Origin: an uncultured bacterium
GTDB taxonomy: Bacteria; Cyanobacteriota; Vampirovibrionia; Gastranaerophilales; Gastranaerophilaceae
NCBI GenBank assembly: GCA_949284155.1
Contig: CASDVD010000095.1
Location: 1-35,904, forward strand
Length of the DNA stretch: 35,904 bases
Direction of reading: 5' to 3'
This document shows positions 1 to 359 of the stretch, in pieces. The notes beneath the pieces were generated by a model, which saw only the letters and a list, made by a program, of their open reading frames with translations, was not told where the DNA came from and made no database searches. A program made the translations under genes and the position numbers. The stretch's first letter is position 1, and each line of letters starts with the position of its first letter.

Positions 1-26
1 GTTTCTTCGAAAACTCTTCGTTCCAT
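1..26 (-). CDS. Possible 5' end of a gene running off the window edge
   Basis: On the minus strand an ATG at 26-24 opens a frame of eight codons to the window edge (M-E-R-R-V-F-E-E). A GAGAAG motif lies just upstream but only about two bases from the ATG, too close for a good ribosome binding site. Nothing can be said about function. It may be chance. Confidence 0.2.
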
Positions 27-99
27 ATCTTCTCAGTTTCTTTGCATTTGAAAGATTTAATCATAATAAGATTGTAACATATAAATATCCTGTGAATAG

Positions 100-127: not shown

Positions 128-133
128 GTAATT

Positions 134-359
134 GATAGTCTGATACGGTAAATCTCCCTACCGAGCCAACTGGCGACAGAGGGATAGTCCGAGTCCTCAT
201 AATCAGGCTATTGTTTTATGGTATGAGGTCGTAAAATCTGCCTCGGACGACGTTTGGCTCAGCCATACGATGACGGGTTGGCAGTCCGTCCATACCGATT
301 TTTATAGTGTAAAGCTATAAATGCAAAAAATAAAAAAGACTCCATAAGGAGTCTTTTTT
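134..359 (+). ncRNA. Structured non-coding RNA, class unassigned (6S-like possible)
   Basis: This roughly 225-base segment lies between a good promoter and an intrinsic terminator and has no convincing reading frame. It folds into a long interrupted hairpin. GAGCCAAC (163-170) pairs with GTTTGGCTC (252-260, one bulge), GTCCGAG (187-193) with CTCGGAC (242-248), and CCTCATA (195-201) with TATGAGG (222-228). Side hairpins are GACGG/CCGTC near 272-290 and TTTATAG/CTATAAA near 301-320. It is more GC-rich than its surroundings. Size and one long irregular hairpin resemble 6S RNA. The AGTCCGAG stretch recalls the P4 strand of RNase P RNA, but the conserved 3' half of that RNA is absent. It does not match the SRP or tmRNA signatures I know. 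Confidence 0.6.
332..359. terminator. Bidirectional intrinsic terminator
   Basis: GACTCC/GGAGTC stem (338-343 and 348-353), with A-run on the left and T-run on the right, so the stem extends as A-T pairs. It can end the plus-strand RNA and also the minus-strand tRNA-Leu whose 3' end is at 361. Confidence 0.8.

Follow-up and report, generated by a model that had tools for sequence, protein, structure and literature searches.

The RNA family known as skipping-rope (RF02924), reportedly first described by Weinberg et al. in 2017, has remained an orphan: it consists of RNAs of about 80 nt, found in both phages and bacteria, in which an outer stem encloses three hairpins (HP1, HP2, and HP3) and a pseudoknot joins HP1 to HP3. 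In the literature that we found, it serves only to illustrate a structure (PMC7779021) and makes up 1% of the phage ncRNAs of one data set (PMC8501573). No paper tying it to PBECR proteins was found in this search, whose coverage did not extend to the original description of the family. PBECR domains were predicted in 2017 to be phage-associated RNases of the BECR fold that occur either alone or fused to phage head proteins, and the accessible part of that study names no RNA partner for them (Iyer et al., PMC5512222), whereas an RNA neighbor was found here for one of them, PBECR3 (PF18812).

The closest functional parallel is provided by type III toxin–antitoxin systems, which include ToxIN, CptIN, TenpIN, and AbiF/RCd22. 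According to the accessible part of one source, they combine an RNase toxin with a structured or pseudoknotted RNA that has its own promoter and that, in some loci, is present in tandem copies (PMC12373285); the loci described below resemble them in a predicted RNase, in the RNA and its promoter, and, for some loci, in the tandem arrangement. In the AbiF/RCd22 pair of C. difficile, the RNA binds and neutralizes the toxin (PMC12373285, same part). A number of differences can nevertheless be noted. Type III toxins have the ToxN fold or a HEPN domain, instead of the BECR fold predicted here, and their RNA lies upstream of the toxin gene, in one operon and with a terminator in between, whereas the RNA studied here is a four-way junction of about 85 nt located behind the gene. 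Tandem RNAs of the skipping-rope kind are found in the window and at L129, L237, and L257, and a single copy stands beside most PBECR3 genes.

Two tandem RNA modules between a HigB-like gene and a tRNA gene

The window, i.e. the whole stretch of 35,904 nucleotides analyzed, comes from a member of the Gastranaerophilaceae. Near its beginning, the first-pass annotation had proposed a gene for a structured RNA of no assigned class, bounded by a promoter and a terminator of its own, and such a gene is indeed found at 100–359 on the plus strand. The promoter TTGAAA-16-TAAAAT is present, with a -35 box at 100–105 and a -10 box at 122–127 (10 of 12 matches), the latter ending 5–6 nt ahead of the first outer stem; as promoter-like matches are about equally common in shuffles of the region, this match alone is weak. 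The announced terminator, a GACTCC-ATAA-GGAGTC hairpin followed by TTTTTT, lies at 338–359. It is bidirectional, and thus listed on the minus strand by the scan, and it is common to the RNA and to the facing gene, a tRNA-Leu (GAG) identified with Rfam at 361–445 on the minus strand, convergent with the RNA. At gathering thresholds, Rfam reports two tRNA-Leu genes in the window and nothing else. The fold of 126–361 is better than that of 200/200 shuffles (z -4.8), and the minus strand of the same segment folds almost equally well (z -4.1). On the other side, a HigB-like toxin gene divergent from the RNA is cut by the contig end after 21 codons (2–64, minus strand; E 6e-9); an intact relative is a PF05015 HigB (E 8e-17). 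A 16-base copy of the tRNA-Leu end (435–450) recurs 89 bases further on, at 524–539, with 94% identity, and hints at a past integration of which it would be a possible attachment-site remnant.

The region had been taken for one long irregular hairpin made of nested complementary blocks. All three blocks exist, with edges at 163–169/254–260, 188–194/242–248, and 196–202/222–228, but they bridge two separate tandem modules of about 85 nt, hereafter modules A and B. Two modules are distinguished because the two parts of the stretch match relatives separately: the part that ends at about 205 has matches at several sites of other genomes, some of them tandem, and 209–309 match another genome of the genus (G002) by themselves. 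The minimum-energy fold of 133–301 gives the consensus helices of module A, which are backed by compensating changes in relatives, and the inter-module block 188–194/242–248 is complete in the window only (4 of 7 pairs, by a hand count, in the CUCCC/GGGAG allele described below). Since both modules have relatives in other genomes, the RNA gene is far more than a chance fold; the locus is real and, for all its ordinary size, informative.

Module A (133–213, plus strand; 93.9 bits with its own covariance model) was defined from an alignment of 41 distinct sequences as a four-way junction with an outer stem of 12 pairs (133–144/202–213), three hairpins (HP1, 146–149/160–163; HP2, 165–167/172–174; HP3, 179–182/195–198), and a pseudoknot between the loops of HP1 and HP3. 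The search pattern used to collect these sequences fixed HP1, whose invariance thus comes from the pattern, and two bases of the 5' arm of the pseudoknot. Loci whose outer stem had 5 or more pairs were kept (62 loci with 63 copies), at the cost of some true copies such as those at L029, L054, and L066; 7 loci were then dropped by eye as matches in coding sequences, and same-contig duplicates were removed. In the alignment, 96% of 943 cells are paired and 14 of the 23 pairs have changed on both sides, which provides the compensating changes sought in relatives; none of 500 shuffles was as good. Given this selection, HP3 and three pseudoknot pairs provide free tests of the structure, whereas HP1, the two remaining pseudoknot pairs, and some of the outer stem do not. 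Under a scoring that demanded a 3' arm ending in AG, the pseudoknot pairs fully (5/5) in 35 of the 41 sequences and with a 1-nt bulge in 5 more. Its alleles include CUUGC/GCAAG, CUCGA/UCGAG, CUCCC/GGGAG, CUCGG/CCGAG, and CUGGA/UCCAG. The window copy alone fails, with CUCCC (154–158) opposite CCGAG (189–193), as though two alleles had been mixed. As only 3 of 5 pairs form, this copy is possibly impaired, and two alleles might also have been joined by mis-assembly.

Copies of the HP1 pattern judged real by eye come mostly from metagenome-assembled genomes labeled Candidatus Gastranaerophilales, Melainabacteria, or Cyanobacteria, and thereby place the window in this lineage. With the covariance model, module A is found in 24 of 191 genomes of the family, belonging to 17 of 41 genera, and in 28 of 192 genomes of the order, 3 of these 28 being outside the family. 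This distribution is patchy, like that of mobile or conflict genes.

Module B (217–303, plus strand; 107 bits with its own covariance model) is a divergent skipping-rope RNA. Its segment 218–298 scores 32.4 bits with RF02924 (E 1.4e-5 in 800 bases), below the cut-off of 36.7, and another copy reaches 35.3 bits. It keeps the GAGGUCG start of the family and its architecture, with an outer stem (219–224/292–297), HP1 (228–232/247–251), HP2 (256–258/262–264), HP3 (272–276/286–290), and a pseudoknot between CUGCC (238–242) and GGCAG (280–284), followed by a U-run (299–303); the structure is derived from 8 similar sequences and thus shows little covariation. Its covariance model finds it in 7 of the 191 family genomes, in several of them after module A, and G002 has module B without module A but with its own TATAAT ahead. 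The second half of module B is replaced in L021, L096, and L103, and the module is truncated in L034, whereas the window copy looks intact. A BLAST search found no module B in phages, and RF02924 gave two weak matches only in 97 family genomes.

Compared against Rfam, as had been suggested, module B thus gave a sub-threshold match to RF02924 and module A none, even at relaxed thresholds; the RF02924 model does not detect module A. Both modules nevertheless share with RF02924 the outer stem, the three hairpins, the HP1/HP3 pseudoknot, and a length of about 80 nt, and module A also shares its occurrence in phages and bacteria and its PBECR3 neighbor. They differ in the pseudoknot arms, which are CUNNN/NNNAG in module A and CUGCC/GGCAG in module B instead of the GGY/RCC seen by eye in RF02924 copies. 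The proposal of a new class in this lineage therefore holds in part, insofar as module A has no Rfam match and is mainly found in Gastranaerophilales. Given the distant RF02924 match of module B and the shared architecture and nuclease neighbor of module A, it is more fitting to regard the window RNAs as a new branch within an orphan kind that was already known.

PBECR3 genes beside skipping-rope-type RNAs

From Pfam and from fold comparison, PBECR3 is predicted to be an RNase with the RelE/BECR fold. The protein model is confident (pLDDT 92), and the solved structure that best matches its C-terminal half, albeit modestly, is BrnT (Z 6.2, rmsd 2.8 over 74 residues); RelE toxins rank below it (Z about 4.5). 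Foldseek alone returned nothing with E < 0.2. PADLOC gave no match for the four proteins submitted to it. Solo members from Gastranaerophilales score 17 to 31.5 bits against PF18812, one of them above the cut-off of 30 and the other tested ones below it, whereas members from Firmicutes score 68 to 91 bits. A direct profile comparison of the two groups is weak (P 0.057), and their presumed relationship rests on Pfam.

As the search pattern selects RNAs, the neighbor statistics of pattern-found copies were not used as the main test, which started instead from the nuclease. A protein profile search of 383 family genomes yielded 30 PBECR3-like loci in 25 genomes, and module A immediately adjoins 28 of the 30, in convergent orientation. 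Of the two others, L173 is a fragment of 42 aa, and at L188 the contig ends about 2 bases after the gene. The distances between module A copies and those between PBECR3-like proteins are correlated (Mantel r 0.82, n = 22, 0/2000 permutations), a high value that could come from co-inheritance alone, and the pseudoknot type follows the protein subtype. In a single phage record, Dulem virus 31, a similar protein forms the C-terminal part of a minor capsid protein, and module A lies directly behind this gene on the opposite strand. This genome (L198, PP511318.1) is filed as Microviridae, but it measures 35.8 kb, carries terminase, portal, and capsid genes, and looks like that of a tailed phage.

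The same neighborhood is found with RF02924 itself. In viral contigs, a consensus pattern found 27 stretches, and all 15 of those scanned with Rfam match RF02924 above the cut-off. In 4 of these 15, the preceding gene encodes PBECR3; three were tested (E 4e-23 to 5e-26), and the fourth (L202) is 64% identical to a tested PBECR3. Conversely, PBECR3 relatives occur at 23 loci of viral contigs, and each of the 19 scanned has RF02924 on the same strand, 40–85 nt behind the PBECR3 match (50.9 to 79.6 bits); the 4 unscanned loci are on contigs that stop 21 nt after the match. PBECR3 genes are also present in 6 records of annotated phages, under the name spbA in five of them and located after the lysin gene where inspected; skipping-rope follows the PBECR3 gene in 5 of these records, and the sixth stops at the gene. 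Near-identical S. suis prophages are present in both samples, so that the 19 and 5 overstate the number of independent cases. No PBECR3 match was found in 8 of the 13 phage records with skipping-rope.

Only certain PBECR3 subfamilies show the pairing, because 12 further loci, found among 339 genomes from the phylum, lack both module A and RF02924, and some of them have another element. Eleven of the 12 are ORFs of 357–599 aa. At five (L269, L270, L279, L280, and L282, from two genomes outside the family of the window), a conserved, structured element with an outer stem and the core CGUCCGAAA lies just behind the long PBECR3 ORF. It has no match in Rfam and is possibly a third type of RNA paired with PBECR3.

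Promoter patterns suggest that the RNA is probably transcribed separately from its neighbor. All 27 module A copies that are linked to PBECR3 and have 22 nt or more of upstream sequence carry a -10 box with at least 5/6 matches to TATAAT, 25 of them perfect (shuffles average 12, with a maximum of 20), and 26 of these 27 boxes end 6–8 nt ahead of the modeled start of the module. A -35 box with at least 5/6 matches to TTGACA is found in 25 of 28 linked copies, and a U-run follows the module in 26 of 27. In Firmicutes, similar promoter boxes were seen by eye between the PBECR3 gene and the skipping-rope RNA. The presence in 26/27 copies of an outer stem followed by a U-run, together with the position of the RNA just behind the gene in Firmicutes, would also suit a cis-acting 3' element or a terminator of the neighboring gene. 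This is very improbable, as the RNA has its own TTGAAA/TATAAT promoter, orphan copies exist, and module A is on the strand opposite to the gene in Gastranaerophilales and in Dulem virus 31. Indeed, RNA and nuclease gene are convergent in Gastranaerophilales but co-directional in Firmicutes, and this difference in gene order between lineages implies that the RNA should act in trans rather than as a cis-acting 3'-UTR element.

A probable antitoxin role and its alternatives

The genetic evidence that this RNA family partners a phage-type nuclease is strong. We consider it fairly probable that skipping-rope-type RNAs act together with PBECR3 RNases, most likely as their antitoxins, and that the pair in the window is an orphan. 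In the paired subfamilies, no intact nuclease was seen without the RNA, and RNA without nuclease is common. Viewed from the RNA side, 5 of the 28 module A loci in 191 genomes stand beside an intact PBECR3-like gene, 1 beside a remnant (by eye), 6 beside HigB, and 2 in HTH-RNA-RNA loci, with 14 left unclassified; no PBECR3-like match was obtained in 19 of the 24 genomes that carry module A, and contig G028:C60 keeps the module next to what appears by eye to be the last codons of such a gene. Most copies are thus orphans in this direction, and an RNA that outlasts the nuclease is the trace that an antitoxin would leave. As the profile search found no PBECR3-like match in the genome of the window either, its modules A and B are an orphan tandem pair, placed between the HigB gene and tRNA-Leu.

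A type III-like antitoxin role is therefore favored, with AbiF/RCd22 as a precedent. From the observed structure, promoter pattern, and linkage, we infer that the RNA would be transcribed in excess from its own promoter and would bind its cognate nuclease by its pseudoknotted face, thereby blocking the predicted RNase activity. If the promoter lost its activity or the RNA decayed faster, for instance when a phage shuts off its host, the nuclease would be released. The pair in the window could then be either a relic of such an RNA–nuclease unit or a resident antidote against nucleases from other elements. If true, the link between skipping-rope and PBECR would give both a testable function, and an orphan RNA family a role. 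It would reveal an RNA-controlled BECR nuclease carried by the phages and prophages of gut bacteria and streptococci, and toxins of the RelE-like fold would join those countered by RNA. The maintenance of small structured RNA arrays in gut bacteria, where no partner is obvious, could also be explained in this way.

The same linkage and co-variation data, as well as the large conserved loops of the RNA, would also be expected if the RNA were a working part of the nuclease, such as a guide, an activator, or a substrate-presenting component of an RNA–protein effector. This seems unlikely, since an activator is not expected to outlive its enzyme as the RNA does in 19/24 genomes, once beside a gene remnant, and no guide-like variable stretch was seen in the module A alignment. 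It is still less likely that RNA and nuclease are unrelated accessory genes that hitch-hike in one phage slot. The many orphan RNAs and the location of the Streptococcus copies between lysin and att would fit this explanation, but the two are adjacent in 28/30 loci with both misses cut short, the pair recurs with opposite gene order in two distant bacterial groups, and the RNA type tracks the nuclease type.

Two further explanations concern the window more directly. Its RNAs might serve the adjoining divergent HigBA module, given that HigB stands beside module A in 6 of 28 loci, that it has the broad RelE-like fold also predicted for PBECR, and that an orphan skipping-rope lies near a Gp49/HTH toxin–antitoxin pair in the satellite phage Javan99. 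We regard this as improbable, as HigBA has an HTH antitoxin gene of its own in intact relatives, the six HigB loci look like one inherited island, and A+B occurs without HigB at L141/L061 and with a broken HigB at L024. A 6S-like RNA, as the first-pass annotation had suggested, or another housekeeping RNA, can be set aside almost entirely: length and terminator are all that speak for it, whereas no covariance-model match to 6S (RF00013) was obtained in the window, another contig of the same genome has a separate 6S candidate (39.8 bits, below the cut-off of 46.4), and the occurrence of the modules is patchy.

Orphan arrays and other possibly toxin-linked RNAs

Orphan immunity-gene arrays are known to protect against rival toxins. 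A more speculative extension of the antitoxin reading, which we hold as tentative, is that skipping-rope-type RNAs form a superfamily of BECR nuclease antidotes and that orphan tandem arrays, such as A+B in the window or A+A', A+C, and A+D+E in its relatives, serve as resident poly-immunity loci. In such an array, the modules would disarm different nucleases arriving with phage heads or prophages. Module C, located downstream of module A at L050, L112, L156, and L157, has the same outer-stem and hairpin plan, with a GCCA/UGGC pseudoknot seen by eye, and modules D and E are found at L007 and L105; module A followed by such modules resembles small-RNA arrays.

Several loci associate these RNAs with other predicted nucleases or toxins. 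At L004 (from 1250, on G028:C6), a small HTH gene is followed by two tandem module A copies and a HEPN-like gene, and at L093 (from 2089) by two tandem module A copies and an NYN-domain gene, i.e. one RNA layout with two different predicted nucleases. At L025 (6423–7222), module A directly precedes a Gp49-like toxin gene and an HTH gene, and in Javan99 (L232, 1796–2674) the orphan skipping-rope does the same, so that one toxin/HTH arrangement is present in two unrelated hosts. Finally, in one viral contig (L214, 5703–6915), a skipping-rope RNA, a gene for a PemK-like toxin, and a tandem pair of drum RNAs (RF02958) lie near each other, and drum RNA may also be toxin-linked.
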